64,000 nucleotides of DNA. It comes from Archangium sp. (GTDB lineage Bacteria > Myxococcota > Myxococcia > Myxococcales > Myxococcaceae). Where the stretch lies: positions 1 through 64,000 of the forward strand of contig JAUXRX010000048.1 in the NCBI GenBank assembly GCA_030681645.1. Direction: 5' to 3'. The position numbers and the translations under genes were made by a program. Under the pieces are notes generated by a model. It was given only the letters and a program-made list of their open reading frames with translations, was not told the origin of the DNA and ran no database searches. Shown here piece by piece: positions 39,845-60,722 of the stretch; positions within the stretch are counted from its first letter, which is position 1, and every line of letters starts with the position of its first letter.

Positions 39845-40612
39845 GTGGCGCTCGGGGAAACCAAGCCTCAGATCCTCGAGAAGTACGGCCCGTACGTACG
39901 GTCACTCGCGGCCCAGGTGCGCAAGCAGTTCAACTCGCAGTTCGAGATGGACGAGCTGGTGGCGTGGGGCCAGATCGGCCTGCTGGAAGCCGCTGAGCGC
40001 TTCGACGCCCGCGTCGGCGCCAACTTCCTCACTTTTGCCCACTACCGCATCAAGGGCGCCATCTACGACGGCCTGCGGAAGATGGGCGTGCTCAAGGGCG
40101 GGGCAGCAGCATCCGAGCGGGCCAACGCCTACATGACCAACCTGTCGGATCGAGGGGGCAGCGGTGGCTCCCTCGACGACGACGTGCGCGAAATCTCAGG
40201 CGCGGTCACGGGCCTGGCGATGGTCTTCGCCACCAGCCTGGAAGGCACCGAAGGTCTTCAGGTTTCCGACGAACAGCTCCCGGCTGACGAAAAAATCCAG
40301 CTCGAGCAGATGCGCCGCCGGGTGCGGGCCGCCATCGAGAAGCTCCCGGAAAAAGAGCGGAAATTGCTCCAGGGCTACTACTTCCAGAACAAGACGCTGG
40401 AAGAGGCCGGGGCCGAGATCGGCCAGTCGAAGAGCTGGGCCAGCCGCCTGCATGCCCGTGCAGTGGAGACCTTGAAGCAACTCCTCGAAGAAGACGACGA
40501 TAACCAGTCAGACCACAACAGGAGCAATGACCATGGCCGGACCACTGGCAGGAATCTCGGCAGCACAGATCGCCCAGCAGAAGCTCCCCGACCAGGCCGC
40601 ACAGCAGGTTAA
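39845..40612 (+). CDS. FliA/SigD-like alternative sigma factor of the T3SS locus
   Basis: A 255-residue sigma-70 family protein from GTG 39845. Region 2 is FEMDELVAWGQIGLLEAAER then FAHYRIKGAIYDGLRKM, with the RIKGAIYDxLR typical of FliA (sigma-28). Region 3 is short and diverged (REISGAVTGLAMV). Region 4 is KLPEKERKLLQGYYFQNKTL then GQSKSWASRLHARAVETLKQ. The basic VPRS motif found after region 2 in FliA is replaced by a Gly/Ala stretch (LKGGAAASERA), which may change promoter choice. It probably drives late T3SS genes. The last 27 or so codons overlap the inner-rod gene, and that tail (NQSDHNRSNDHGRTTGRN) looks non-functional. Confidence 0.82.
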   Translation: MALGETKPQILEKYGPYVRSLAAQVRKQFNSQFEMDELVAWGQIGLLEAAERFDARVGANFLTFAHYRIKGAIYDGLRKMGVLKGGAAASERANAYMTNLSDRGGSGGSLDDDVREISGAVTGLAMVFATSLEGTEGLQVSDEQLPADEKIQLEQMRRRVRAAIEKLPEKERKLLQGYYFQNKTLEEAGAEIGQSKSWASRLHARAVETLKQLLEEDDDNQSDHNRSNDHGRTTGRNLGSTDRPAEAPRPGRTAG

Positions 40613-41060: not shown

Positions 41061-41080
41061 GCGTCAGCAGTCCTCAGTGA

Positions 41081-41117
41081 AAAGGGCGGCTTCCATCGCG
41101 GAGGCCGCCTTTTTTCG
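41081..41117 (+). terminator. Rho-independent terminator after sctI
   Basis: AAAGGGCGGCTTCC and GGAGGCCGCCTTTTTT form a stem with one G.U pair and an eight-base loop, ending in six T then CGTTT. It separates the sigma/rod unit from the basal-body genes. It may attenuate rather than end transcription, since no obvious promoter is seen in the 25 bases before sctJ. Confidence 0.8.
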
Positions 41118-41142
41118 TTTCTTTGGATATGGTCGCGCCCTC

Positions 41143-41934
41143 ATGAGCCGTTTCGTGCGCTCCTCCTCTTTCTTCGGCGTGGTCCTCCTCGCTTCTGCGT
41201 GCTCGGTCAACCTCCAGCATGATCTGACGGAGGACGACGCCAACGACATCTACGTGCTCCTGCAGAAGAAGAGCATCGATGCCTCGAAGCTGAAGGAAGG
41301 CGAAGGCAAAGAGGCCCGCTACGTCATCTCGGTGCCCAAGGCCGACGTGGCCACGGCCGCGCAGCTTCTGCGCGAGCATTCCCTGCCGCGGCCCCAGTCT
41401 GACGGCCTGGCCATCTTCAAGATGACCAAGGGCATGATCCCCACCCAGACCGAAGAGCGCGCGATGTTCATCGAGGCGCTCGGCGGCGAGGTCTCGAACG
41501 CGCTCAACCGGATCCCCGGCGTGCTCGAGGCGCGGACGATCGTGATGATCCCCGAGGTGAACGATCTGACGCAGCCCGAGAAGAAGCCCCTGCCGTCCGC
41601 CTCGGTGCTGATCAAGTACATGGCCGTCGACGGCAAGTCGCCGGTGCCGATGGACGACATCCAGTCCTTCGTCGCCAGCGCCGTGCCCGAGCTGAAGAAG
41701 GAGAACGTCAAGGTGCTGATGACCGAGGCGAAGTTCGTCACCGAGGTGAGCGAAGAGCCGCGGCTCCAGCGCATTCTCGGCGTCAACATCGACAAGGCGA
41801 GCGCCGGCACGTTCAAGGCGATCATCGGCGTGTTCGCGCTGCTCTTCATCGCCATGGCCGGCCTGACCGCGTTCATGGTGGTCCGCAAACCCGCCGCGCG
41901 TCCTGCCCCGCGCGCCAAGACCCAGGAAGGCTGA
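41143..41934 (+). CDS. sctJ: T3SS inner-membrane ring lipoprotein SctJ (FliF/YscJ family)
   Basis: A 263-residue lipoprotein: signal peptide with lipobox LLASAC (Cys20), then the ring-building motif domains. DANDIYVLLQKKSIDASKLK and YVISVPKADVATAAQLLREH form RBM1. The second covers AMFIEALGGEVSNALNRIPG and VLEARTIVMIPE, followed by SASVLIKYM. One membrane helix lies near the C-terminus (AIIGVFALLFIAMAGLTAFM). That is the SctJ layout; flagellar FliF is twice as long and has no lipobox. It builds the MS-ring-like inner ring around the export gate. It opens the main structural run and is followed by the FliG-like gene. Confidence 0.93.
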   Translation: MSRFVRSSSFFGVVLLASACSVNLQHDLTEDDANDIYVLLQKKSIDASKLKEGEGKEARYVISVPKADVATAAQLLREHSLPRPQSDGLAIFKMTKGMIPTQTEERAMFIEALGGEVSNALNRIPGVLEARTIVMIPEVNDLTQPEKKPLPSASVLIKYMAVDGKSPVPMDDIQSFVASAVPELKKENVKVLMTEAKFVTEVSEEPRLQRILGVNIDKASAGTFKAIIGVFALLFIAMAGLTAFMVVRKPAARPAPRAKTQEG

Positions 41935-41969: not shown

Positions 41970-43460
41970 GTGGAGCAATTCTTCACGTCGCTTTCCAAGC
42001 GACAGACGATGCTCCTGCTGACGTCTCTGGCCTTCGGTGGCTCTGAGGCCGTCGCGGCCTACGAGCACCTCGACCAGGGTGAAGAAGAGCTGCTCAAGCA
42101 CCGCGCCATGGGCGTGCTCCAGATTCCCCGCGACAAGCGCATTCCGCTGCTCGTGCAGGAGATCAAGCGCCTCGTCACGCAGCGCCGCCGCCAGCTCGCC
42201 AGCGCCGACCCGAAGCGGCTCGCCGTGCTGCTCAAGAAGGAACGTTCGACGGTGGTCGAGGTGGTCTTAGGCGCGCTCGCGTCTGACCTCGCGAACGCGG
42301 TGCGGGCCGAGATGGGCAACCCCGCGCCGGTGAAGCTCCTGCGCGACGTGAAGCCCGAGGTGCTGTCGATCGTGCGCTGGAAGCTCGAAGACGCCCTGCG
42401 CTCGAACGCGCCCCAGGTGGGCAGCTTCCGCTTCACCGATCTCTCGATGATGCAGCAGCGCGAGATCCTCGCGGTGGCCGATCGCATGGGCGCGCGCGTG
42501 CTGGCCACGGCGGTGGCGGGGCTGGGTGACGAAGCGAGAGCGGCCTTCCTCACCGCGCTCCCGCCAGATCAGCGCCAGCTGGCGGCGCGGGCCGCGGAGG
42601 CCGGCGCCTCACGCCGCCTCACCGAGAAAGACGCGAAGCTGGTGCTCGAGATGCACGGCGCGCTCGAGAACCCCTCGCAGGGCATGCGCAGCGCGGGCGT
42701 GCAGCGCATCGTGCGCGCCTGCTACGCGCAGTCTCCCGAGTTCGCGCAGCGCTTCGCCGAGCGGCACCAGGGCGAGATCGGCAAGCTCCTCAACCGCTGG
42801 CTGCGCGAAGAGAAGGGCAAGCCGGTCAAGGGCGACGGCGGGCGCCTCGACATCGTCGAGCAGCTCGAGCGCCTCGCGCAGAAGGGCATCGTCGATCGCC
42901 CGATGCGGCTGCCCCCGCCGATGAAGGCGCCCGCGGCGCCGCCGCCCCCGATGCTCCGGCCTCCTCCGGGCAGCTCGGCACCGTCGGGCCAGGCCTCGAG
43001 GGTGGCGCCCAGCTCTTCACCGTCGAACCCGGCGTCGAGAGTGCTCGTCGCGCCGCCGCAGCGCCGCAACACCGGGTCGTCGGCGCAGGCTGCGCCCCTG
43101 CCGCAGAACGCCGCGCGCCGCCCCGCGCCGTCGTCGGGCCAGCCGCCACGCCGCGACCCGATGGCCGATCGCGAAGCGCGCCGCGCCGGGGCGCAGGGCT
43201 CGGGCGTGGTGCCGAACCTCAAGCCGGGCACGCGGCCCACCGACTCGCAGGTGAGGGCCCAGCGGGTGCTGCGCGATGGCAAGCCGCTCGCGAACGACGC
43301 GCTCGCCACCCAGCCGCCCCAGCGCTCGACCTCGCCGGTGCAGGCGATTCCCCGCCGGAAGGACCCGGCGACGGGCCAGCCGACAGGCAGCACCACCAAC
43401 CCCCACCGTTCTGCGGTGCTCAAGGGACCAGGTCGTGGACCGGCCGGTGGTTCGCGTTAG
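41970..43460 (+). CDS. FliG-like protein with Pro-rich tail, in the SctK position
   Basis: A 496-residue protein from GTG 41970. Residues about 78-113 (ADPKRLAVLLKKERSTVVEV, then LASDLANAVRAEM) match the middle domain of flagellar FliG, with its EHPQ motif degraded to KERS. Residues about 152-215 (FRFTDLSMMQQREILAVADR, then VLATAVAGLGDEARAAFLTA) match the C-terminal FliG domain that contacts the MS ring and stator. A third helical region (220-310) and a Pro/Ser/Arg-rich tail of about 180 residues (APAAPPPPMLRPPPGSSAPS) follow. Flagellar operons place fliG exactly here, between fliF and fliH. Injectisomes normally carry SctK instead. It may link SctJ to SctQ. The call rests on motif pattern and position; an SctK-like protein is the alternative. 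Confidence 0.65.
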   Translation: MEQFFTSLSKRQTMLLLTSLAFGGSEAVAAYEHLDQGEEELLKHRAMGVLQIPRDKRIPLLVQEIKRLVTQRRRQLASADPKRLAVLLKKERSTVVEVVLGALASDLANAVRAEMGNPAPVKLLRDVKPEVLSIVRWKLEDALRSNAPQVGSFRFTDLSMMQQREILAVADRMGARVLATAVAGLGDEARAAFLTALPPDQRQLAARAAEAGASRRLTEKDAKLVLEMHGALENPSQGMRSAGVQRIVRACYAQSPEFAQRFAERHQGEIGKLLNRWLREEKGKPVKGDGGRLDIVEQLERLAQKGIVDRPMRLPPPMKAPAAPPPPMLRPPPGSSAPSGQASRVAPSSSPSNPASRVLVAPPQRRNTGSSAQAAPLPQNAARRPAPSSGQPPRRDPMADREARRAGAQGSGVVPNLKPGTRPTDSQVRAQRVLRDGKPLANDALATQPPQRSTSPVQAIPRRKDPATGQPTGSTTNPHRSAVLKGPGRGPAGGSR

Positions 43461-43471
43461 AGTAGCGGCCG

Positions 43472-44215
43472 ATGGATGACGGGCCGCGCGACGAACGAAG
43501 ACCCCCCACGGGGACCCCACGAGTGATCGGGAAGGTCATCAAAGGGAGTGAGAGTGGCGAGGTGTCGCCGCTGAGCGAGAGGTCTGTCGTCGCCCCCTCG
43601 GGCGCAGGCGGTGGCGGTGGCGCTCCGCGCCGCGGTGTCGTCAACGCCGAGGAGTACGAGGCGAAGACCGCGGGCAAGCAGATCATCGCCGAGGCCCAGG
43701 CGAAGGCCGATGAGATCAAGGCCGAGGCCCTGCGCTTCAAGGAAGAGGTCTTCGCCAAGGCGCGCGACGAGGCCAAGGCCGACGTGCAGGCGCGCGCGGC
43801 CGAAGAGATCGCCCGGGCGAAGATGCAGGCGGGGCAGATCGTCGCCGACAGCGAGAAGCAGGTGCTCGAGCTGGCGCTGAAGGTGGCCGCGAAGATCATC
43901 AGCCGCGACCTCGAGCGCGAGCCCGACGTGCTGCTGGAGATCGTGGCCAACTGCACCGAGGCCGCGCGCAGCTCGAAGGCGATGATCTTCAAGGTGCACC
44001 CCGAAGACGGCAAGCGGCTTCGCGAGAAGGCGCCGCGGCTGATCGAGCTGATCGGGCGGTCGGTGGACATCACCATTCGCGACGACTCCGACATCGAGCG
44101 GGGCGGGTGCGTGATCCAGACCGAGTACGGCACCATCGACGGGCAGATCCGCACGCAGTTCGAGATGTTGCGGAACGTGCTGATGCCGGCCGACGCGAAA
44201 AAAGAAGTGAAGTGA
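43472..44215 (+). CDS. sctL: T3SS ATPase stator SctL (FliH/YscL family)
   Basis: A 247-residue cytoplasmic protein. A disordered N-terminus leads into a long coiled coil (EAQAKADEIKAEALRFKEEV, then ARDEAKADVQARAAEEIARA) and a globular C-terminal domain with VAAKIISRDLEREPDVLLEI and SDIERGGCVIQTEYGTIDGQ, hallmark FliH/SctL stretches. It dimerises, binds the ATPase SctN and links it to the SctQ platform. Its stop overlaps the sctN start. Confidence 0.93.
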   Translation: MDDGPRDERRPPTGTPRVIGKVIKGSESGEVSPLSERSVVAPSGAGGGGGAPRRGVVNAEEYEAKTAGKQIIAEAQAKADEIKAEALRFKEEVFAKARDEAKADVQARAAEEIARAKMQAGQIVADSEKQVLELALKVAAKIISRDLEREPDVLLEIVANCTEAARSSKAMIFKVHPEDGKRLREKAPRLIELIGRSVDITIRDDSDIERGGCVIQTEYGTIDGQIRTQFEMLRNVLMPADAKKEVK

Positions 44216-45540
44216 TGGCCATCGACCTGCGCCGGTACGCTGATCTCCTCAAGAACACCCAGACGGTGCGGGTGCGAGGCCGCGTCACCGAGCTGACGGG
44301 CCTGGTGATCAAGGCCGCCGTGCCCAACGTGCGCATCGGCGAGGTGTGCCTCATTCGCGGCAGCGGTGGCCGGGCCGAGGTGCGCGCCGAGGTGGTGGGC
44401 TTCCAGGGCGACACCGTGATGCTCATGCCCCTGGGCGAGCTCTCGGGCATCGGCCCCGATTCCGAGGTGGTGCCCACCGGGCGGCCGCTGATGATCTGGG
44501 GGGGCGACGGCCTGCTGGGGCGCGTGCTCAACGGGCTGGGCGAGCCGATCGACGGCCGGCCGCTGCCCACCGAGACCATGGTGCCCTGGGCGGTGGACCG
44601 CGACTGTCCCGACCCGTTCAAGCGCCAGCGCATCACCCGCCCGCTCTCGCTGGGGGTGCGCTGCATCGACGGGTTGCTCACCGTGGGAGAAGGCCAGCGC
44701 ATCGGGCTCTTCGCAGGCTCGGGCGTCGGTAAGTCGACCCTGATGGGGCAGATCGCCCGGCAGACGGCGGCCGAGCTGTCGGTCATCGCGCTCATCGGCG
44801 AGCGTGGTCGCGAAGTGCTCGAGTTCATCGAAGACGCGCTGGGCCACGAGGGCATGAAGCGCTCGGTGGTGGTGTGCGCCACCTCGGACCAGCCCGCCCT
44901 GGTGCGCTTGCGCGCCGGCTACGTGGCCACGGCCATCGCCGAGTTCTTCCGCGAGCGCGGCGGCAACGTGCTCTTCATGCTCGACACGGTGACCCGCCTG
45001 GCGCGCGCCCAGCGTGACATCGGCCTGGCCATCGGCGAGCCGCCCGCGCGCCAGGGCTACCCGCCGTCGGTCTTCTCGATGCTGCCGCGCATGATGGAGC
45101 GCACCGGCAACTCGGAGAAGGGCAAGTGCACCGCCATCTACACCTGCCTCGTGGCCGGTGGAGACATGGAAGAGCCCATCGCCGACGAAGTGCGCGGCAT
45201 TCTCGACGGCCACTTCATCTTGAACCGCGCCATCGGAGAGCGGAACCAGTGGCCCGCGATGGACGTGCTGGCCTCGCTGTCCCGCGTGATGAGCCAGATC
45301 GTCAGCAAGGAGCACAAGAAGGCCGGCGGCAAGCTCCGCGAGACGCTGTCGACCTACGAGAAGCAGCGCGACCTGATCCTCCTCGGCGCGTACCAGTACG
45401 GCACCGACCCGCGCACCGACTACGCCATCGACAAGTACGACACGATCATCGCCTTCCTCAAGCAGGACACCCACGAGAACTCGCCCTTCGAAGAGACGGT
45501 GCAGCGCCTGGTGGACATGTTCGCCGACGCCGCCGAGTGA
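44215..45540 (+). CDS. sctN: T3SS ATPase SctN (FliI/YscN family)
   Basis: A 441-residue hexameric ATPase that unfolds and delivers export substrates. Walker A is GLFAGSGVGKSTLMGQ near residue 165, with the LMGQIAR that distinguishes type III ATPases. The catalytic Glu region is ALIGERGREVLEFIED, Walker B is NVLFMLDTVTRLARAQRD, and PPARQGYPPSVFSMLPRMME is the family signature. The N-terminus has the short beta-barrel of the F1-like fold. ATG 44215 overlaps the sctL stop (TGATG). All catalytic residues are intact. Confidence 0.97.
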   Translation: MAIDLRRYADLLKNTQTVRVRGRVTELTGLVIKAAVPNVRIGEVCLIRGSGGRAEVRAEVVGFQGDTVMLMPLGELSGIGPDSEVVPTGRPLMIWGGDGLLGRVLNGLGEPIDGRPLPTETMVPWAVDRDCPDPFKRQRITRPLSLGVRCIDGLLTVGEGQRIGLFAGSGVGKSTLMGQIARQTAAELSVIALIGERGREVLEFIEDALGHEGMKRSVVVCATSDQPALVRLRAGYVATAIAEFFRERGGNVLFMLDTVTRLARAQRDIGLAIGEPPARQGYPPSVFSMLPRMMERTGNSEKGKCTAIYTCLVAGGDMEEPIADEVRGILDGHFILNRAIGERNQWPAMDVLASLSRVMSQIVSKEHKKAGGKLRETLSTYEKQRDLILLGAYQYGTDPRTDYAIDKYDTIIAFLKQDTHENSPFEETVQRLVDMFADAAE

Positions 45541-45585: not shown

Positions 45586-46086
45586 ATGCCTCCGTATCGA
45601 CTCCAGGTCCTCCTCGACATTCGCACCAAGGCTGAAGACGCAGCCAAGGACGCGTTCGCCGAGGCGCTCAAGGCCGCCGACAAGGAAAAGAAGCAGCTGG
45701 TCAGCATGAACCAGCAGCTCGAGCGCATGAAGGTGGAGCGCAAGGCCAAGGTGCAGGCGTTCCTCCAGGAGATGACCCAGAAGGGCGGGGGCATCAGCGG
45801 CTTCCAGCAGATGGGCCGGTTCGAGCAGCGCCTCAAGGACGAAGAGGCCCAGTTCATGCTCGACATCGAGCGCCAGAAAGAGGTCGTGGTGCAGGCCGAG
45901 AACCTGGTCGAGCAGCGCCGCGCCGAGATGGCCGAGGCCGCCAAGGAGAAGAAGGCCATCGAGAAGAACAAGGAAGCCTGGGCGAAGCAGGTGAAGCAGG
46001 AACGTCAGACGAAGGAAGAGGCGAACCAGGAAGAGATTGGAGCGGTGCTCCACCTCGCCCGGACGCGCCTGGAGAAGAAGTCATGA
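45586..46086 (+). CDS. sctO: T3SS ATPase stalk protein SctO (FliJ family)
   Basis: A 166-residue antiparallel coiled coil. It opens YRLQVLLDIRTKAEDAAKDA, close to the FliJ opening, and stays helical and charged to the end (QVKQERQTKEEANQEEIGAV). FliJ/SctO sits in the pore of the ATPase hexamer and couples it to the export gate protein SctV. The next gene starts four bases before its stop. Confidence 0.88.
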   Translation: MPPYRLQVLLDIRTKAEDAAKDAFAEALKAADKEKKQLVSMNQQLERMKVERKAKVQAFLQEMTQKGGGISGFQQMGRFEQRLKDEEAQFMLDIERQKEVVVQAENLVEQRRAEMAEAAKEKKAIEKNKEAWAKQVKQERQTKEEANQEEIGAVLHLARTRLEKKS

Positions 46087-47090
46087 GCCGAGTCGACGAC
46101 GATCGCGACGCGGCGCGGGTTGCAGCCCGACTCGCCGAAGCGAAACGAACCGAAGAAGGTCAGAAGAGCAAGAAGGCCGCCGAGAACAACGCGTTCTCGA
46201 AGCTGGTGCAGGGCCAGAAGAAGGAAGCCCAGGTCAAGCAGGAGGGCAACCTCGCGCGCAGCGCCATCGCCCAGCTGCTGGAGGCCGCGGAGGCCGGCCA
46301 CGCGGACGAGGCCAAGCACCTCGAGCAGGGGACGCAGGGCACGCAGCAGGAGAGCGCCTTCAAGTCGAAGCTGGGCGCCAAGGGCCAGGAACAGAAGGTT
46401 CAGCAGAACAGCCGGTCCGACGGCAAGCAGATGGAGCAGGTCAAGGAGCAGGGCGGGCAGGAGCTCTCGCAGACCGCCAGCAGCCGCGGCGCCGATCAGG
46501 CGGGCAACGCGAAGGCCGCGCAGGGCCGCAGCGGCGACGCCAAGGTGTCGCGCGAGCGCCTCGAGGAGCGCAAGGAAGCCGGCGAGTCGAGCAGCAGCAG
46601 CGCCACGAGCGGCGCGGCGGGGGCTTCGGCGAAGGGCGAGAAGGGCGACATCAAGGCCGACGCCGACAAGGGCGGCGGCCAGCAGGGCGGAGGGAAGGAC
46701 AAGGACGGGGGCGGCGCCGCCGCGGCGAACCCCGGCTTCCGCTTCAACCCCGCGCTGATGGCGCCGATGTCGGTGGCGAAGGCGAAGGAGGCCTCGGGTT
46801 CCGAGCGGCTGCGCAAGGTGGCCAACGAGCTGGCGCAGAAGATCGTCGAGAACGTGCGCATCGGCACCAACGCCATGGGCAAGACGGAGTTCCAGATCGA
46901 TCTCAAGGGCGACGTGCTCTCGGGCCTCTCGGTGAAGGTCTCGGCGAAGAACGGGAAGATCTCGGCGGTCTTCTCGGGGTCCGACAAGGACGTGCTCAAG
47001 ATGATCGAAGAGCAGGGTGAGGCGCTCAAGGCGGCGCTCGGCGCGCGTGGGCTCACGCTCGAGGACTTCAAGACCGAGGCCCGCGGGTGA
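46083..47090 (+). CDS. sctP: Ruler/substrate-switch protein SctP (FliK-like)
   Basis: A 335-residue protein. The first 220 residues are Gln/Lys/Ser/Gly-rich, low in hydrophobics and probably extended (QGTQGTQQESAFKSKLGAKG and on), as expected of a molecular ruler. The last 95 residues form the globular T3S4 switch domain (GKTEFQIDLKGDVLSGLSVK, then VSAKNGKISAVFSGSDKDVL), the pattern of the FliK C-terminal domain. Through it the protein would contact the SctU C-terminal domain and switch export after the needle reaches length. It overlaps its neighbours on both sides by four bases. Confidence 0.82.
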   Translation: MSRVDDDRDAARVAARLAEAKRTEEGQKSKKAAENNAFSKLVQGQKKEAQVKQEGNLARSAIAQLLEAAEAGHADEAKHLEQGTQGTQQESAFKSKLGAKGQEQKVQQNSRSDGKQMEQVKEQGGQELSQTASSRGADQAGNAKAAQGRSGDAKVSRERLEERKEAGESSSSSATSGAAGASAKGEKGDIKADADKGGGQQGGGKDKDGGGAAAANPGFRFNPALMAPMSVAKAKEASGSERLRKVANELAQKIVENVRIGTNAMGKTEFQIDLKGDVLSGLSVKVSAKNGKISAVFSGSDKDVLKMIEEQGEALKAALGARGLTLEDFKTEARG

Positions 47091-48448
47091 GTTCGAGGAC
47101 CACGGGCAAGTCGCCCGAGACCACGATGATGATCAAGGCGCCCACGTTCGCCAAGTCGGGGCGCGCGTGGAGGCCCTTCGTGTTCAACAACCTCGAGAAG
47201 GTCAGCAAGCGGCACGCGCAGCTGGTCAAGAACCTCGAGTGGATGTTGCCCAACGTGCGCTCGACCGGGGAGGTCTCGAGCTCGGTGCGCAAGCGCCTGC
47301 AGGAGATGCTCGAGGAAGAGGTCTCGCTGCACGCCGACTACGTGCACGTGGTGCCGATGTCGCAGCTGCAGCACTACATCGGCGAGACGACCTTCCTCGC
47401 GGTGCTCGCGCCCCAGCCCAACAAGACGCGCGGCCTGCTCGAGGTCGAGCTGGGCCTGGCCCACCACGCCATCGACATGTTGCTGGGCGGCGCGGGTGAG
47501 ACGGTGGCGCTGCGCCCGCTGACCGACATCGAAGAGGGCGTGATGACCTACGTCATCATCGAGACGCTCAAGGCGCTCTCGCCCTCGCTCGACCCGTCGA
47601 TCCCCAAGCTGCGGATCGAGGGCGTGGTGCGCGGCTTCGAAGAGATCCAGGGCCTCATTCCCGAGACCGAGAACCTGGCGATCGTGCAGCTCAAGGCCGT
47701 GTTCGGCAGCCACACCGGCTACGTGCGCCTGGTGATCCCCGAAGAGGTGCTGGCCACGGCGAACCCGCCGGCCGACGCCGCCGTGCGCCGCGCCCGCCGC
47801 GCCTCTGACGCGCAGGCCCACCTCACGCGCCTGCGCAACGTGAAGACCTGGGTGCGCGCCGAGATCGGCAACGTCGAGATCTCCGCGGCCGAGCTGTCCC
47901 AGCTGCGAGAGCGCGACGTGGTGCTGGTGGACACGCTCAGCGCCCGGCCGGACCAGGGGCAGGGGGGGACGGCGAAGCTCAAGGTGGGCTACGGGCGCGC
48001 CGGCCACCTCGACGCCGAGATCATCGCCGAGGGCGGCCGGTTTCAGGCGAAAGTGACGGGTATCAGCGTGGGGGGGCCTCCGCCTCCCGGCGCGGGGGAA
48101 GATTCGCCCGAAGAGCCCGCGGCCGATGGTGAGGCCGGGGCCGATGAAGACGCTGACGAGTCGACAACACCTGGTGCGGTTCGAGGGAGAAACGACGTGG
48201 AAGATGCCCAGGGCGCCGGTGGCGCCGACCTGATGAACGACATCCCCCTGCAGATCGCGGTCGAGCTGGGCCGCGTGTCGACGACCGCCGAAGAGGTGGT
48301 GGCCCTCAAGGTCGGCCACGTCTTCGACCTGAACCGCGTGGCCGGTGAGCCGCTCGATCTGTCGGTCAACGGCAAGGTGGTGGCGCGGGGTGAGCTCGTC
48401 GAGATCGACGGCAACCTCGGCATCCGGATCCTCTCGCTCGCAGGGTGA
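47087..48448 (+). CDS. sctQ: T3SS sorting-platform/C-ring protein SctQ (FliM/FliN fusion type)
   Basis: A 453-residue protein from GTG 47087. The N-terminal half resembles FliM (NKTRGLLEVELGLAHHAIDM then LLGGAG, and LTDIEEGVMTYVIIETLKAL). A first SpoA domain lies around residues 268-335 (VRAEIGNVEISAAELSQLRE). An acidic linker follows, then a second SpoA domain of FliN type around 383-451 (IPLQIAVELGRVSTTAEEVV, FDLNRVAGEPLDLSVNGKVV). Two SpoA domains in one chain are standard for SctQ. The FliM-like N-terminal part is unusually clear. An internal start giving a free FliN-like piece, as in other SctQ genes, is possible near the linker. Confidence 0.92.
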   Translation: MSSRTTGKSPETTMMIKAPTFAKSGRAWRPFVFNNLEKVSKRHAQLVKNLEWMLPNVRSTGEVSSSVRKRLQEMLEEEVSLHADYVHVVPMSQLQHYIGETTFLAVLAPQPNKTRGLLEVELGLAHHAIDMLLGGAGETVALRPLTDIEEGVMTYVIIETLKALSPSLDPSIPKLRIEGVVRGFEEIQGLIPETENLAIVQLKAVFGSHTGYVRLVIPEEVLATANPPADAAVRRARRASDAQAHLTRLRNVKTWVRAEIGNVEISAAELSQLRERDVVLVDTLSARPDQGQGGTAKLKVGYGRAGHLDAEIIAEGGRFQAKVTGISVGGPPPPGAGEDSPEEPAADGEAGADEDADESTTPGAVRGRNDVEDAQGAGGADLMNDIPLQIAVELGRVSTTAEEVVALKVGHVFDLNRVAGEPLDLSVNGKVVARGELVEIDGNLGIRILSLAG

Positions 48449-48479
48449 CCGCGCGTCACGCGTCGGCTACCGTGCGCCC

Positions 48480-49055
48480 GTGCTTCGGTTGCCGGTCCTC
48501 CTCCTCTTCATCTCCCTGACGTCCGCCCCCGCAGCGCGGGCCGAGGAGCGCCCGCCCGAGCCCACCATCGTGGTGCCGGCGGCCGAGCCCTCGGCGCTTC
48601 CGCGCGACGAAGCAGGCCGGCTCGCGGAGCCCGAGATCCCGAAATCAGAGCCGCCCGACCTGGCCGCTGACGAGTTCAGCCTGGGGTGGACGCTGGTGAG
48701 GACGATGATCGTCCTGGCGATGGTGGTGGCGCTCGCCTACCTGACGCTCAACGTGGGGCTGCGGCGCCTGCTGGGCATTCGCGCGCCGGTGGGCACCTCG
48801 GTGGTGACGGTGCTCGAGCGCGTGGCGCTCGATCAGAAGCGCTCGTTGTTCGTGGTCGAGGCGGGCGGTGAGGTGTTGCTCATCGGCGGCGGCGAGAGCG
48901 CGCTCACCTTGATCACCAAGCTCGATCGGGCGGAGGTCGACAAGCTGAAGGCGTCGACTCCGGCCTCGCCGATTCAGTTGAGCCCCCTGCTGCGCAGGTT
49001 GCTGGGACGCAAGGATGCGCCCCCCACTGCGCCTGACCCTGGACAGACCCCGTGA
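48480..49055 (+). CDS. fliO: FliO-like export-gate assembly protein
   Basis: A 191-residue protein from GTG 48480. A signal peptide (LRLPVLLLFISLTSAPAARA) and a Pro-rich periplasmic stretch precede one membrane helix (TMIVLAMVVALAYLTLNVGL). The cytoplasmic domain has SVVTVLERVALDQKRSLFVV then VLLIGGGESALTLITKL, the core pattern of FliO. FliO helps assemble the FliP/Q/R gate in flagella and is generally absent from injectisomes. Its position directly before sctR repeats the flagellar order fliN-fliO-fliP. The start of sctR overlaps its stop by four bases. Confidence 0.85.
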   Translation: MLRLPVLLLFISLTSAPAARAEERPPEPTIVVPAAEPSALPRDEAGRLAEPEIPKSEPPDLAADEFSLGWTLVRTMIVLAMVVALAYLTLNVGLRRLLGIRAPVGTSVVTVLERVALDQKRSLFVVEAGGEVLLIGGGESALTLITKLDRAEVDKLKASTPASPIQLSPLLRRLLGRKDAPPTAPDPGQTP

Positions 49056-49882
49056 CTGTGACTGAACGTCTCTCGACCCCGATGCGCCTGAAGTTGTGGG
49101 TGTTCTCCGCGGCGTTCCTGCTCACGCCCGCGCTCGCGTTGGCCCAGAAGAAGGGGCGGGGGGCGACGCCTCCGCCGGTCGACGTCGGCGACGTGCCGCT
49201 CTCGGGCGGCGACTCGTTCGCCAACAAGCCGCTGGTGCTGATGATGGCGCTGGCGGCGATGAGCCTGGCGCCCTTCGTGCTGTTGATGGTGACGAGCTTC
49301 GTGAAGATCTCGGTGGTGCTCTCGATCGTGCGCTCGGCGCTGGGCACCCAGCAGATACCCCCCACGCAGGTGATCACCGGGCTGGCGACGATCCTCACCG
49401 TCTACATCATGTCGCCGGTGGGCCAGGCGATGTTCCGGGCAGCCGACGCGACAGGCGTCACCCAGGAAGGGGGGTTGATGAGCGCGAAGACCGTCGACAC
49501 CCTGGTGCAGGCGGCCAACCGGGCCAAGGAGCCCATGCGTGACTTCCTGCTCAAGAAGATCACGCTCAAAGATCGAACGCTCTTCTACTCGCTGGCGCTC
49601 AAGCTGCGAAAACCCGAGGACCGCGTCGGCATCAGCGAGAAGGACTTCCTGGTGCTGGTGCCGTCGTTCGTGGTCTCCGAGCTGAAGGAGGCGTTCCAGA
49701 TCGGGTTCATGTTGTTCCTGCCGTTCCTGGTGATCGACATGGTGGTGGCGAACATCCTGCTCGCGCTGGGCATGCAGATGTTGTCGCCGACGACGATATC
49801 GATGCCCTTCAAGTTATTGCTCTTCGTGCTGGTGGACGGTTGGTACCTGATCGCGAAGGGCCTGGTCATCGGCTACCTCTGA
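49052..49882 (+). CDS. sctR: T3SS export-gate protein SctR (FliP family)
   Basis: About 276 residues from GTG 49052; ATG 49082 is an alternative that would put a FliP-like signal peptide (MRLKLWVFSAAFLLTPALAL) right at the N-terminus. Four membrane helices follow. The signature runs FVLLMVTSFVKISVVLSIVR, then SALGTQQIPPTQVITGLATI and, near the end, PSFVVSELKEAFQIGFMLFL with FLVIDMVVANILLALGM. A cleaved signal is typical of FliP and usually missing in SctR, another flagellum-like feature here. Five copies form the core of the export pore with SctS and SctT. Confidence 0.96.
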   Translation: MTVTERLSTPMRLKLWVFSAAFLLTPALALAQKKGRGATPPPVDVGDVPLSGGDSFANKPLVLMMALAAMSLAPFVLLMVTSFVKISVVLSIVRSALGTQQIPPTQVITGLATILTVYIMSPVGQAMFRAADATGVTQEGGLMSAKTVDTLVQAANRAKEPMRDFLLKKITLKDRTLFYSLALKLRKPEDRVGISEKDFLVLVPSFVVSELKEAFQIGFMLFLPFLVIDMVVANILLALGMQMLSPTTISMPFKLLLFVLVDGWYLIAKGLVIGYL

Positions 49883-49892
49883 GGGAGAGCGC

Positions 49893-50159
49893 ATGCATCA
49901 ACTCACCAACGTCATTCAGCAGGCGCTGATCCTCGTGCTCGTGGTCTCGGGGCCGCCGATCATCCTGTCGTTGATCATCGGCTTCATGGTGTCCGTCTTC
50001 CAGGCGGCCACGCAGATCCAGGAGCAGACGCTCTCGTTCGCCCCCAAGCTGGTGGTGATCTTCGGGGTGCTGGGGCTGGCAGGCCCGTGGATGGGCTCGA
50101 TGCTGCTGCGCTTCACCTTCAACATCTTCGACCGCTTCCCCATGCTGATCGGCCACTGA
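49893..50159 (+). CDS. sctS: T3SS export-gate protein SctS (FliQ family)
   Basis: An 88-residue protein with two membrane helices: LILVLVVSGPPIILSLIIGF and VVIFGVLGLAGPWMGSMLLR, joined by FQAATQIQEQTLSFAPKL, the FliQ/SctS signature. It wraps around the SctR/SctT core and helps seal the pore. Spacing to sctR and sctT is 10 and 4 bases. Confidence 0.95.
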   Translation: MHQLTNVIQQALILVLVVSGPPIILSLIIGFMVSVFQAATQIQEQTLSFAPKLVVIFGVLGLAGPWMGSMLLRFTFNIFDRFPMLIGH

Positions 50160-50163
50160 CGGC

Positions 50164-51003
50164 ATGGGCGCAGCCGAAGCACAGGAACTGGTCGCGGCGC
50201 TGAGGCACGAGCTGGGCATTCAGCTCGACTTCACCCAGATCCTGCTCGCGTTCGCGTTGTTGATGGCGCGGGTGCTGCCGGTGGTGATCCTCACCCCGTT
50301 CCTCGGCGGCGAGACCGTGCCCCAGGAAGTGAAGATGGGCCTGGGCGTGATGATCGGCATGGTGCTCTACCCGGTGCTGATCGCGCAGGTTCGGGAGATC
50401 CCCATCTCGGCGGTGCTGTTCATCGCGTTGATGCTCAAGGAGCTGTTCCTCGGGCTGACGCTCGCCTTCATCGTGGGCATGGTGTTCGACGCGGCGAACT
50501 CGGCAGGCAACCTGATCGACTCGATGTCGGGTACGAACCAGGCGCAGCTGATGGTGCCGCAGATGGGCCAGAACGCGTCGCTGTTCTCGAACCTTCAGCT
50601 GCAGATGACGACGGTGCTCTTCCTCACCCTGGGCGGCCACCACATCGTCTTCCAGGTCTTCGGCGAGAGCCTGACGCAGATCCCCCTCGACCAGTACCCG
50701 CGCTTCAGCCACGGCACCTGGGGCTTCTTCGAGACGATCCTGCGCATCTTCGGCGACATGGTGCGCATCGCGCTGGCGCTGGCGTCGCCGGTGCTGCTGG
50801 CGACCTTCATGGTCGACCTGGCGCTGGGCATGATCAACCGCGTGGCGCCGCAGGTGCAGGTCTTCTTCGTGGCGATGCAGATCAAGCCGGTGGTCACGGT
50901 GCTGATCATGGTCAGCGCCATTCACCTCATCGTCGACCGGCTCATCGGCGAGTACGGCGTGATGCTGCGCTGGCTCAGGCGTGCCTTCGAGCTGCTCTCC
51001 TGA
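50164..51003 (+). CDS. sctT: T3SS export-gate protein SctT (FliR family)
   Basis: A 279-residue protein with about six membrane helices. The family pattern is seen in MARVLPVVILTPFLGGETVP, VKMGLGVMIGMVLYPVLIAQ, LGLTLAFIVGMVFDAANSAG and LIDSMSGTNQAQLMVPQMGQ. SctT is the single-copy partner of SctR in the gate. Length is close to other FliR/SctT proteins and no fusion to SctU is present. Start ATG 50164 lies four bases after the sctS stop. Confidence 0.94.
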   Translation: MGAAEAQELVAALRHELGIQLDFTQILLAFALLMARVLPVVILTPFLGGETVPQEVKMGLGVMIGMVLYPVLIAQVREIPISAVLFIALMLKELFLGLTLAFIVGMVFDAANSAGNLIDSMSGTNQAQLMVPQMGQNASLFSNLQLQMTTVLFLTLGGHHIVFQVFGESLTQIPLDQYPRFSHGTWGFFETILRIFGDMVRIALALASPVLLATFMVDLALGMINRVAPQVQVFFVAMQIKPVVTVLIMVSAIHLIVDRLIGEYGVMLRWLRRAFELLS

Positions 51004-51012
51004 GGAGGCGAC

Positions 51013-52080
51013 GTGTCTGAGGGTGGAGACAAGACAGAGGAACCGTCTCAAAAGAAGATCGACGATGCCCGCAAGCAGGGCAACGTCTGGAAGAGCAAGG
51101 ACCTGTCGGGCGTCTTCGCCATGGCGGTGGCGATGGCGGTGGTGGGGGGCACCTGGAGTTCCTTCGAGACGCGCATCAAGGAGCTGTTCCTCTTCGCGGT
51201 CGATCACATCGCCCACCCCGCAGACCTCGAGCTCGCCACCCGGCAGCTCATGGTGCTCGCGCTGCAGGACCTGCTGCTGACCTGCATCCCCATCGCGTTC
51301 GCCGCGGCGATCGCCGGCGGCCTGATGGAGTTCCTCCAGGTCGGCGCGCTGCTCGCGCTCGACGCGGTGATGCCGAAGTTCGAGAAGCTCAACCCGATCA
51401 GCGGCCTCAAGAACATGATCGGCAAGAAGCAGCTGGTCGAGCTGCTCAAGTCGATGTTCAAGCTCGCCGTCACCGGGTGGGTCGTCTACGGGGTGGTGCA
51501 CGACGCGATGAAGCTGGTGGTGTCCACCATCAACGGTGACGCGGCGATCACCATGATGGTGATGGGCGAGCTGGTGAACCGCATCGTCAAGCGGGTGGTG
51601 ATGCTCTTCGTCGGCTTCGCCATCTTCGACGTCTGGTGGCAGCACAAGAGCTACATGAAGGACCAGATGATGTCGAAGGACGACGTGAAGAAGGAATACA
51701 AGGAATCGGAAGGCGACCCGCACCACAAGGCCAAGCGCAAGGAGCTGGCCCACGAGCTGCTCGAGAGCGCGCAGATGGACTCGGTGAAGGGCGCCGACGT
51801 GATCGTCACCAACCCCGACCACGTGGCGATCGCGCTCAAGTACGACAAGGCGCGCGACGGGGCCCCGCGCATCATCGCCAAGGGCATCGAGCTGAAGGCC
51901 GAGGGCATTCGCCAGCTGGCCCGGCAGTACGACGTGCCGCTGCTGCGCAACGTGCCGCTGGCGCACGCGCTGTTGCGCATCGAGGTGAACCAGGAGGTGC
52001 CCGAGGAGCTCTACGACGCGGTCGCCGAGGTGCTGAACTTCGTCTACCAGCTCAAGACGGGCGCGCCGACGGCTGGTTGA
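51013..52080 (+). CDS. sctU: T3SS switch protein SctU (FlhB/YscU family) with NPDH site
   Basis: A 355-residue protein from GTG 51013. The N-terminus KTEEPSQKKIDDARKQGNVW is typical of FlhB/SctU. Four membrane helices follow, with LKNMIGKKQLVELLKSMFKL between them. The cytoplasmic domain contains the autocleavage site, here N267-P-D-H rather than the usual N-P-T-H, then VAIALKYDKARDGAPRIIAK and EVPEELYDAVAEVLNFVYQL. Cleavage uses the Asn, which is kept. The change at the third position could alter cleavage rate. SctU selects substrate class together with SctP. A free-standing homologue of its C-terminal domain is encoded about 940 bases downstream. Confidence 0.95.
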   Translation: MSEGGDKTEEPSQKKIDDARKQGNVWKSKDLSGVFAMAVAMAVVGGTWSSFETRIKELFLFAVDHIAHPADLELATRQLMVLALQDLLLTCIPIAFAAAIAGGLMEFLQVGALLALDAVMPKFEKLNPISGLKNMIGKKQLVELLKSMFKLAVTGWVVYGVVHDAMKLVVSTINGDAAITMMVMGELVNRIVKRVVMLFVGFAIFDVWWQHKSYMKDQMMSKDDVKKEYKESEGDPHHKAKRKELAHELLESAQMDSVKGADVIVTNPDHVAIALKYDKARDGAPRIIAKGIELKAEGIRQLARQYDVPLLRNVPLAHALLRIEVNQEVPEELYDAVAEVLNFVYQLKTGAPTAG

Positions 52081-58558: not shown

Positions 58559-59641
58559 TCAGGCGCCTGCGACGAGCAGGATGATGAGCACCAGGCCCAT
58601 GAGCACCATCACCGCGCCGATGCCCAGCGCGACCAGGTGCTGCTTGTTGCTGAAGTCGATGAGCCTGCGCGGGCCCTCGTCGGCTTCCTGCTCTTCCTGG
58701 GGCTGCTCTTCGTCCTGGGGGGCCTCGCCGTCTTCGGGCGGGGCGTCGTCTTCGGTCTTCTGCGACTCGTCGGCGGGCGGCTCTTCGGCGGGCGCCTCGG
58801 ACGACGGGGGCTCGGGCGCGGGCTCTTCTTCTTCCTGCTTCACCTCGACCGAGGGCGGGTTCTCTTCCTCGGCCTTGACGCTGAGCGTGCCCTCGTCGTC
58901 GTCCTGGCTCGAGGACATGACGACGGGATCCTCGCGGACCTCGGAGGGGTCGATGAAGAGCAGCCGCACGCCGCCGATCTCGAGCTCGTCGCGGTCCTTG
59001 ATGGTGGCCTTGCGGGTGCGCTTCTTGTTGAGCTTGATGCCGTTGCGGCTGCCGAGATCTTCGACGTGCGTGCCCGACCAGTCGCGGCGCACCTTGACGT
59101 GCTTGCGTGAGACGAGGTCGTCGTTGAGCACGATGTCGGCGTCGGCGGCGTCGCGGCCGAAGATGTATTCCTGGGCGTCGGCGATCTCGATGCGGGTGCC
59201 TTCGGTCGCCCCGTTCATCACCCGGAAGTAGGCGTTCTCCCCGCCGGCGGCGAGGCCCTTCATCACGTCCTTGACGACCTTGCGGGAAAGGAAGCTGGTC
59301 TTGCCCGAGACGTCTTCGGTGCTGGTCTCGGCCACGCGATCGAAGGTCACGTCGAACTGGGCGATGGCGATGACGTCGCCGTTGCGCAGCAGGCGCTTCT
59401 CGCCCTTGGGCAGCTTCTGGCCGTTGACCGAGGTGCCGAAGCTCGAGCCGAGATCTTCGAGGAAGAAGAGGGTGCCGTCGCGCGAGATGCGGGCGTGGTT
59501 GCGCGAGACGGCCTGCTGGGCGAGCACGACCTGGCAGGTCTGATCACGCCCGAAGGTGATGATCTCCTCGTCGAGCAGCACCGTCTTTGTCTGATCGGCA
59601 CCGCTCCCGCTCTTCATTTTGACCGTGAGTCGGACTCCCAT
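58559..59641 (-). CDS. Two-FHA-domain protein with C-terminal membrane anchor
   Basis: About 360 residues from ATG 59641. FHA1 has FGRDQTCQVVLAQQAVSRNH and FLEDLGSSFGTSVNGQKLPK. FHA2 has FGRDAADADIVLNDDLVSRK and HVEDLGSRNGIKLNKKRTRK. Both keep the GR, S-x-x-H/K and N-G residues of phosphothreonine binding. A long acidic/Pro linker (about 230-325) leads to one membrane helix at the very end (LGIGAVMVLMGLVLIILLVA). The protein is thus tail-anchored with its FHA domains in the cytoplasm. SctD of injectisomes is also an FHA-plus-helix protein but has a periplasmic domain, which is missing here. Convergent with sctV; a role with the T3SS is possible, not shown. Confidence 0.78.
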   Translation of the reverse strand: MGVRLTVKMKSGSGADQTKTVLLDEEIITFGRDQTCQVVLAQQAVSRNHARISRDGTLFFLEDLGSSFGTSVNGQKLPKGEKRLLRNGDVIAIAQFDVTFDRVAETSTEDVSGKTSFLSRKVVKDVMKGLAAGGENAYFRVMNGATEGTRIEIADAQEYIFGRDAADADIVLNDDLVSRKHVKVRRDWSGTHVEDLGSRNGIKLNKKRTRKATIKDRDELEIGGVRLLFIDPSEVREDPVVMSSSQDDDEGTLSVKAEEENPPSVEVKQEEEEPAPEPPSSEAPAEEPPADESQKTEDDAPPEDGEAPQDEEQPQEEQEADEGPRRLIDFSNKQHLVALGIGAVMVLMGLVLIILLVAGA

Positions 59642-59654
59642 TGAGCGCTTGGCT

Positions 59655-60722
59655 TCAGTCGCTGACGTACTGCTTGCAGGTGGCGACCTGGTTCGAGAAC
59701 TCGGTCTCACTGGCGAACTTGAGGAAGTTCTTGCACGCGACCGACGCGTTCTTCTCGTCGCTCCGGTTCTTGAAGAGCTCGTAGAGCCCGTAGTGGCACA
59801 GCGCGTACTTGGGGTCGTACTTGAGGCAGCGCTTGTAGGCGCGCTCTTCGTCGTTCACGAGGCCCTTCTCCCGCGCCTGAATGGCGACGGAGTACTCGCC
59901 TTCGGGCGTCTTGGTGCCGGCGGCGCGCGCCTTGACGTCGTCGAGGGCCTTGTCCTGCAGCTTGCACTTCCTCTCGGCCACGATGATGTTGTTGCGGCAC
60001 TGGGCGAAGTTCTCGTCGGTCTCGATGCAGCTCGAGAACGTGTCCTTCGCTTCGCAGGGCTTGCCGGCTTCCATGAAGGCGTTGCCCAGCACCAGCCAGG
60101 CGGCGGTGAACTTCGGGTCGAGCTGGGTGGCCTTGGTGAGGGTCTCGATGGCCGTCTCGTTCTCGCCTTCTTCCACGGCGATCTGCCCGAGTTGGGCCCA
60201 GGCGTCGGCGAGGTCGGGCCTGACGTGGAGCAGGGTGCGCAGTTCCTTCTTCGCCTTGTCGGGCTGGTTGAGGGCCTTGAAGGCGAGGGCCAGGTTGTAG
60301 CGGGCCTCGAGGTAGTCGGGGTTCACCCGCAGGGCGCGCTGGAAGTTGTCGTGGGCTTTTCCGAAGCCCTGTTCCTTCATGTAGAGGTTGCCGAGGTTGT
60401 TGTAGGCCTGCGCCTGGTCCTGGTTCAGGCGGAGCGCCTTGATCAGGTACTCCTTGGCCTTGGCGTCCTGCCCGCGGTTGAAGGCGATGACCCCCTTGTT
60501 GACCCAGAGGTCGGCGTACTGGGGGGAGAACTGGATGCCGAGATCGCACTGATCCTCAGCGGCCTGGAGGTTTCCCATGGTGATGTACTGAGCGCAGAGT
60601 TCATTGCACTCGAGCGCGCGGGGGTGTGGGGCGGGCACGGACATGCAGCCCGCGGCCATCAAACCCACGGCAAGGGCCAGGCGAAGTCGATTCACGGGCT
60701 TGAGTGTAGAGAACGGGGGCAT
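59655..60722 (-). CDS. TPR-repeat lipoprotein
   Basis: About 355 residues. The signal peptide carries the lipobox AAGC (LAVGLMAAGCMSVP), so it is an envelope lipoprotein. At least six TPRs follow (AYNNLGNLYMKEQGFGKAHD, LEARYNLALAFKALNQPDKA, AWAQLGQIAVEEGENETAIE), then a Cys-containing C-terminal region. In myxobacteria such TPR lipoproteins often serve as pilotins or assembly scaffolds. Start is ATG 60722 or GTG 60695; neither has a clear ribosome binding site. It lies 13 bases downstream of the start of the FHA gene, on the same strand, and reads towards it. Confidence 0.72.
   Translation of the reverse strand: MPPFSTLKPVNRLRLALAVGLMAAGCMSVPAPHPRALECNELCAQYITMGNLQAAEDQCDLGIQFSPQYADLWVNKGVIAFNRGQDAKAKEYLIKALRLNQDQAQAYNNLGNLYMKEQGFGKAHDNFQRALRVNPDYLEARYNLALAFKALNQPDKAKKELRTLLHVRPDLADAWAQLGQIAVEEGENETAIETLTKATQLDPKFTAAWLVLGNAFMEAGKPCEAKDTFSSCIETDENFAQCRNNIIVAERKCKLQDKALDDVKARAAGTKTPEGEYSVAIQAREKGLVNDEERAYKRCLKYDPKYALCHYGLYELFKNRSDEKNASVACKNFLKFASETEFSNQVATCKQYVSD

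Follow-up and report, generated by a model that had tools for sequence, protein, structure and literature searches.

A FliG homologue encoded between sctJ and sctL in non-flagellar type III secretion loci of Myxococcota

Introduction

Which protein joins the inner-membrane ring to the sorting platform in the non-flagellar type III secretion system (NF-T3SS) of myxobacteria, predatory soil bacteria whose machine is related to pathogen injectisomes, and what does its identity say about how injectisomes arose from flagella? The flagellum to injectisome transition is among the classic problems in molecular evolution. Abby and Rocha (2012) gave the Myxo systems a basal position in the NF-T3SS tree, recorded them as lacking FliG among others, and considered that any conserved flagellar protein would have been detected (PMC3459982). 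In the accepted account, the most basal injectisome-type group was already without FliG, and the origin of SctK is not given. A 2023 review of the parts of the Myxococcus xanthus T3SS* lists neither FliG nor SctK (PMC10433427). FliO in Myxococcota non-flagellar systems was reported in 2025, with FliG unmentioned (PMC12403147), and no published report of FliG in Myxo-type systems was found among the open-access papers searched; automated annotation may well have given the gene its Pfam FliG name in individual genomes. The T3SS* is required for prey lysis and acts alongside the Kil pilus in M. xanthus (PMC12075869). Here we describe a FliG-like gene in an NF-T3SS locus of Archangium sp., carried on a stretch of 64,000 nucleotides that we refer to as the window.

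Locus organization and gene order

The NF-T3SS locus spans about 39.8-59.7 kb of the window, which is contig 56 of a genome of 10.2 Mb. Its genes follow the order sigma factor, SctI-like, SctJ, FliG-like, SctL, SctN, SctO, SctP, SctQ, FliO-like, SctR, SctS, SctT, SctU. TPR and other proteins, SctV, and an opposite-strand SctD-type protein composed of two FHA domains and a membrane helix are encoded 3' of SctU. SctJ, SctL, SctN, SctQ, SctR and SctU were assigned with NCBIfam and Pfam profiles, and SctS, SctT and SctV by sequence and by matches across loci. The genes discussed below are as follows.

41077..41934, + strand: SctJ (FliF counterpart), short cytoplasmic tail (NCBIfam, Pfam)
41970..43460, + strand: FliG-like gene of the non-flagellar T3SS locus (Pfam FliG_C, hhalign, PDB profile matches)
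43472..44215, + strand: SctL (FliH counterpart; NCBIfam, Pfam)
44212..45540, + strand: SctN ATPase (FliI counterpart)
45586..46086, + strand: SctO (FliJ counterpart, YscO-like)
46083..47090, + strand: SctP with FliK-like C-terminus (Flg_hook 28.3 bits, slightly short of the cut-off of 29.8)
47087..48448, + strand: SctQ, FliM-middle and FliN-type domains, GGAG motif at 47486-47497 (Pfam FliM, FliMN_C)
48345..49055, + strand: FliO-like gene (Pfam FliO 38.5 bits, over cut-off)
49052..52080, + strand: SctR, SctS, SctT and SctU (FliP, FliQ, FliR and FlhB counterparts), a conserved four-gene block
58559..59710, - strand: SctD-like protein with a pair of FHA domains and a single membrane helix at the C terminus, lacking a periplasmic domain

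Flagellar operons run fliF-G-H-I-J-K, M/N-O-P-Q-R, flhB. The order at this locus is the same, fliFGHIJK-MNOPQR-flhB, and the FliG-like gene lies between the FliF and FliH counterparts as fliG does, in agreement with the first-pass annotation, which had placed it in the fliG position. This is also the position, between sctJ and sctL, that SctK occupies in other injectisomes. The order from the sigma factor through SctI, SctJ, FliG, SctL, SctN, SctO, SctP, SctQ, FliO and SctR-S-T-U was kept in several genera and in other families (L149, L150). The sigma-factor gene (39845-40612) lies just 5' of SctI, an arrangement conserved across loci, and may be the locus's own regulator.

The locus contains the part set of the Myxo-type NF-T3SS, namely SctJ, L, N, Q, R, S, T, U and V with an FHA-type SctD. 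By gene content it encodes the same kind of machine as the Myxo-type systems and the needleless T3SS* of M. xanthus (PMC3459982, PMC12075869, PMC10433427), with which it shares the SctD built of FHA domains and a membrane helix. The published part lists of those systems name neither FliG nor SctK, whereas a FliG is present here.

Homology to FliG

The open reading frame at 41970..43460 (+) encodes 496 aa from a GTG start, which is supported because conservation runs from residue 1 onward. Pfam FliG_C matched the protein in two stretches (36 bits, cut-off 23.3; E 9.3e-9), and no SctK family appeared among its Pfam matches up to E 10. When residues 74-222 were compared with the flagellar FliG of the same phylum by hhalign, the probability was 96.8% (E 2.6e-10), rising to 97.5% (E 7.3e-12) with distant members added. 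The middle domain scored 48-57 and the C domain 43, against 10-11 (SD 2-3) for column-shuffled controls, and the middle domain alone reached a probability of 96-97%. Control profiles for 12 other families of the locus and for SctK scored 8-23 against the same profile, compared to 77 for FliG. In a search of all PDB sequences with an 18-member family profile, FliG accounted for matches 1-14 of 15 (best E 6e-14) and SctK gave no match. At E<=0.01, FliG_C was found in 15/18 diverse members and FliG_M in 14/18.

Fold comparisons gave the same result. The model of the whole globular part was poor (pLDDT 60.7); its first 12 Foldseek matches, with weak E-values (0.03 and above), and its first 15 VIA-align rows were FliG. 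The middle domain superposed on 3usw with a VIA-align Z of 8.6 and an rmsd of 2.2 over 72 residues. Residues 148-315 gave a good model (pLDDT 85.6, pTM 0.81), for which the best 12 VIA-align rows were FliG entries (Z 5.2-6.8) and the next row had Z 2.9. These Z values are insufficient alone and decisive jointly with the sequence evidence. MgtE_N, another candidate identity, was rejected: it was weaker than FliG throughout, and the transporter domain is absent.

The protein scored far below the cut-offs of the full-length NCBIfam fliG models (16.7 vs 550 bits and 12.2 vs 226.7 bits) and is therefore a homologue rather than a flagellar FliG. The first-pass annotation had read two segments as FliG middle and C-terminal patterns and had favored FliG over SctK; the profile searches and the fold rankings, in which FliG chains came first, bear out both points. 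Neither of the two outcomes it had named as refuting, a strong SctK match with FliG absent or a lack of the FliG fold, was observed. These results indicated that the product of 41970-43460 is almost certainly a FliG homologue.

Distribution and origin

The FliG-like gene was present in 112 of 195 Myxococcota genomes, including 90 of the 96 Myxococcaceae, three of them genomes of 2.1-2.7 Mb. Beyond this family it was found in two genomes from other families of the order and in 20 distant ones from 13 further families, the distant members sharing 24-38% identity. SctJ was encoded beside it in 17/20 distant loci fetched; the loci in which SctJ was not seen are L154, cut off at its start by the contig end, and the pair L153 and L162, from two genomes of one genus. 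Myxo-type SctN was identified at 61-68% identity in 10 of 12 distant genomes checked, with a fragment in an eleventh. The gene was absent from six of the 96 Myxococcaceae genomes; SctN was retained in the three of these that were checked, and the gene is therefore not universal. Small Myxococcaceae genomes (2.1-2.7 Mb: L074, L057) keep the gene, and the whole operon was seen in L074.

Other loci were recorded as well. Open reading frames of ~495-562 aa with a clear C-terminal FliG_C (54-80 bits; L068-L071) lie outside T3SS loci. They were set aside on that ground, together with the long FliG_C-bearing reading frames of L072, L073 and L076 and the reading frames of 440-460 aa in L062-L065. Short SctL-SctN (SctO) loci occur in several Myxococcales genomes (L113-L118), some preceded by a sigma factor, and neither SctJ nor a FliG-like gene was seen near them.

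Many Myxococcota carry a separate flagellar FliG as well. In the genome described here, contig 54 (L011) contains a flagellar-type cluster that encodes a FliG (129.8 bits) and a FliI of its own, and several relatives have such a cluster too. The presence of a separate flagellar FliG in the same genome argues that the FliG-like gene of the T3SS has a role of its own.

Gene order and the published tree suggest that this FliG was probably retained from before the flagellum and the injectisome parted. Alternatively, a flagellar FliG could have been recruited into the locus later, and the flagellar FliG of several of these genomes would have provided a donor. Such recruitment is unlikely, as it is the whole operon that follows the fliFGHIJK-MNOPQR-flhB order, including FliO and a FliM-like SctQ. 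In addition, the gene occurs in ~16 Myxococcota families, mostly beside SctJ, so that any recruitment would have to date back roughly to the origin of the phylum.

Domain architecture and torque residues

The domains of the FliG-like protein were assigned as follows (all + strand).

42198..42410, residues 77-147: FliG middle domain (D3 / ARM_M, FliM-binding), EHPQ motif = E91-R-S-T (profiles, fold)
42426..42650, residues 153-227: torque domain of FliG (D5) with the F-x-F motif retained and the torque charges lost (Pfam, hhalign, model)
42651..42842, residues ~228-291: three-helix insert within the torque domain (model alignment)
42843..42905, residues 292-312: final torque-domain helix (profile alignment, model)
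41970..42197, residues 1-76: N-terminal domain, helical, occupying the place of FliG D1/D2 (FliF-binding), FliG_N likeness marginal
42906..43457, residues 313-496: tail rich in Pro, Ala, Arg and Ser, basic and probably disordered (composition)

The torque domain contains ~65 extra residues ahead of its last helix (91 aligned residues over a 160-residue model span). A second FliG_C copy at 217-312 (probability 59%) was considered and set aside: residues 153-312 of the model align a single time to FliG 234-327, which favors one torque domain interrupted by an insert and separates the two readings in part. ARM_C (D4) is missing just before the torque domain, where ~48 template residues (FliG alignment columns 202-249) were skipped in profile alignments, and no ARM_C likeness was detected elsewhere in the protein when profiles were compared with shuffled controls. 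Residues 235-280, considered by eye as a relocated ARM_C, scored at the null level. D3 and D4 intercalate between adjacent C-ring subunits through domain swaps (PMC11087270), and a FliG ring would be hard to build without D4.

The N-terminal domain scored 13-15 against the FliG_N profile (null 11+-2), and a FliG_N match was obtained in one distant member, L155 (E 0.012 at residues 23-60). By sequence, the domain is at best marginally recognizable as FliG_N, which counts against the adaptor reading proposed below. The tail is 184 aa long (P37 A26 R23 S20 G16; 28 basic and 7 acidic residues), close to the Pro/Ser/Arg-rich tail of about 180 residues described at first pass. Its length varies within the Myxococcaceae, and in distant members, whose complete reading frames are ~330-400 aa, it is short or absent.

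Torque charges were scored at the positions of E. coli K264, R281, D288, D289 and R297 in 28 close orthologues. The K264 position was Ala in all 28, R281 was Asp in 24/28, D288 was Arg or Lys in 27-28/28 depending on the alignment, and D289 was Ala in 22-23/28; at R297, Arg or Lys was found in 24/28. Inspection of the torque-helix charges, as the first-pass annotation had suggested, thus showed four of the five to be lost or reversed across almost the whole set of 28 close orthologues, and the charges were absent from distant members too. In true FliG, the stator grips the torque helix, which is negatively charged (PMC11087270). The first-pass annotation had also called the EHPQ motif degraded; it reads ERST here and mostly E-x-P-R in distant members, and its Glu was invariant in 45/45 sequences with a residue at that site.

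The partner of the middle domain was similarly conserved. SctQ matched Pfam FliM over cut-off (46-53 bits) and FliMN_C at this locus and at distant loci. The FliM GGxG motif was found in 10 of 12 close SctQ orthologues and in SctQ of L149, L150 and L155, reading 'AIDRLLGGAGDTGRILRPLTEIE' in L150. Neither a FliM domain nor GGxG was found in rhizobial SctQ (n=2). With the FliM domain and GGxG in SctQ and the Glu retained in the FliG-like protein, both halves of the FliG-FliM interface have been kept together. In L155 (1079-2636, - strand), SctQ is encoded as two reading frames, one FliM-like with a partial C-terminal FliMN domain and the other resembling FliN, an arrangement seen in flagella; an assembly frameshift may account for the split.

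A working rotor subunit, with an ion-driven stator turning the platform, would be compatible with the retained torque-domain fold and with the R297-position charge. It is very improbable nonetheless: the charges at R281 and at the acidic pair have been lost or inverted, K264 is Ala in every close orthologue, ARM_C is missing, and motA/motB were not recognized among the genes read around the locus. As the torque-making residues are gone, the protein has probably survived only as a scaffold.

Comparison with SctK

SctK, YscK, MxiK, OrgA and NolU share with the FliG-like protein the gene position and the proposed role of adaptor from the inner-membrane ring to SctQ, and differ in that no sequence similarity was detected when rhizobial SctK was compared. 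The SctK set comprised seven rhizobial sequences from a single group plus two of different types. Compared with the FliG-like family, rhizobial SctK scored at background as a profile or as single sequences (13-21, probability 0.1-1.3%; FliG 77-88), a weak test for SctK likeness because SctK is very divergent. SctK was also missing from the PDB sequence and fold matches, although absence from a fold list is no proof. That the protein is an unusual SctK, with a merely general helical-repeat likeness to FliG, is suggested by the sctJ-sctL position (as in L112, L122-L124 and L128) and by a review that marks SctK as 'FliG (?)' (PMC4045390), and is highly improbable given those scores and the lack of SctK among PDB or Pfam matches.

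Proposed role

The protein is most likely a torque-dead adaptor in the SctK position, linking the inner-membrane ring to the FliM/FliN-like SctQ. The first-pass annotation had proposed a rotor protein kept as a structural adaptor, and the loss of torque charges, the retained Glu, and the FliM domain and GGxG of SctQ fit that proposal. The middle domain (D3, with the E91 patch) would probably dock on the FliM-like middle domain of SctQ through its GGxG region. The N-terminal domain would probably anchor on the inner-membrane ring, by way of the SctJ tail, the FHA domains of the SctD-like protein, or both; the SctJ tail is ~20 residues long and unlike the FliG-binding tail of FliF, a point against the proposed anchoring. 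So placed, the FliG-like protein would hold the sorting platform (SctQ-SctL-SctN) beneath the export gate, the role of SctK elsewhere, and the torque domain would be retained as a structural part with no motor function. Because the protein lacks both ARM_C, which links neighboring subunits, and the torque charges, no turning FliG ring is expected, and separate pods seem likelier. More speculatively, the Ser/Thr-containing tail might serve as a phosphorylation-dependent tether to FHA domains.

Discussion

The protein described here shares with flagellar FliG (PF14842/PF14841/PF01706) the middle and torque domains, in sequence and in fold alike, the F-x-F motif and the EHPQ Glu. Unlike flagellar FliG, it lacks ARM_C and the torque charges, carries an insert in D5 and a long basic tail, has an N-domain of marginal FliG_N likeness, and belongs to a non-flagellar system whose host genomes may encode a flagellum as well. 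Bergeron (2016) described a FliF-FliG fusion in Chlamydia, along with the FHA-only SctD of Myxococcus (PMC4768692). The Chlamydia fusion likewise involves the FliG middle domain in a non-flagellated bacterium with an injectisome; it differs in being fused to FliF and limited to the middle domain, and its link to the injectisome is unproven. In contrast, the FliG-like gene is separate, encodes a torque domain and lies inside a T3SS operon.

There is perhaps an even chance that the ancestral injectisome had FliG and a full FliM-type SctQ, that Myxococcota keep the intermediate, and that in secretin-bearing injectisomes SctK later replaced FliG or diverged from it extremely. If so, the myxobacterial platform would be a surviving transitional form, midway from the C-ring to the six-pod sorting platform. 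A conserved FliG together with a FliM-like SctQ in the basal group changes the inferred order of losses, and the FliG-like protein gives the SctK position a homologous precursor. The part list of the M. xanthus T3SS* would gain an unrecognized component, and the transition from C-ring to pods becomes testable in a tractable predator, M. xanthus.
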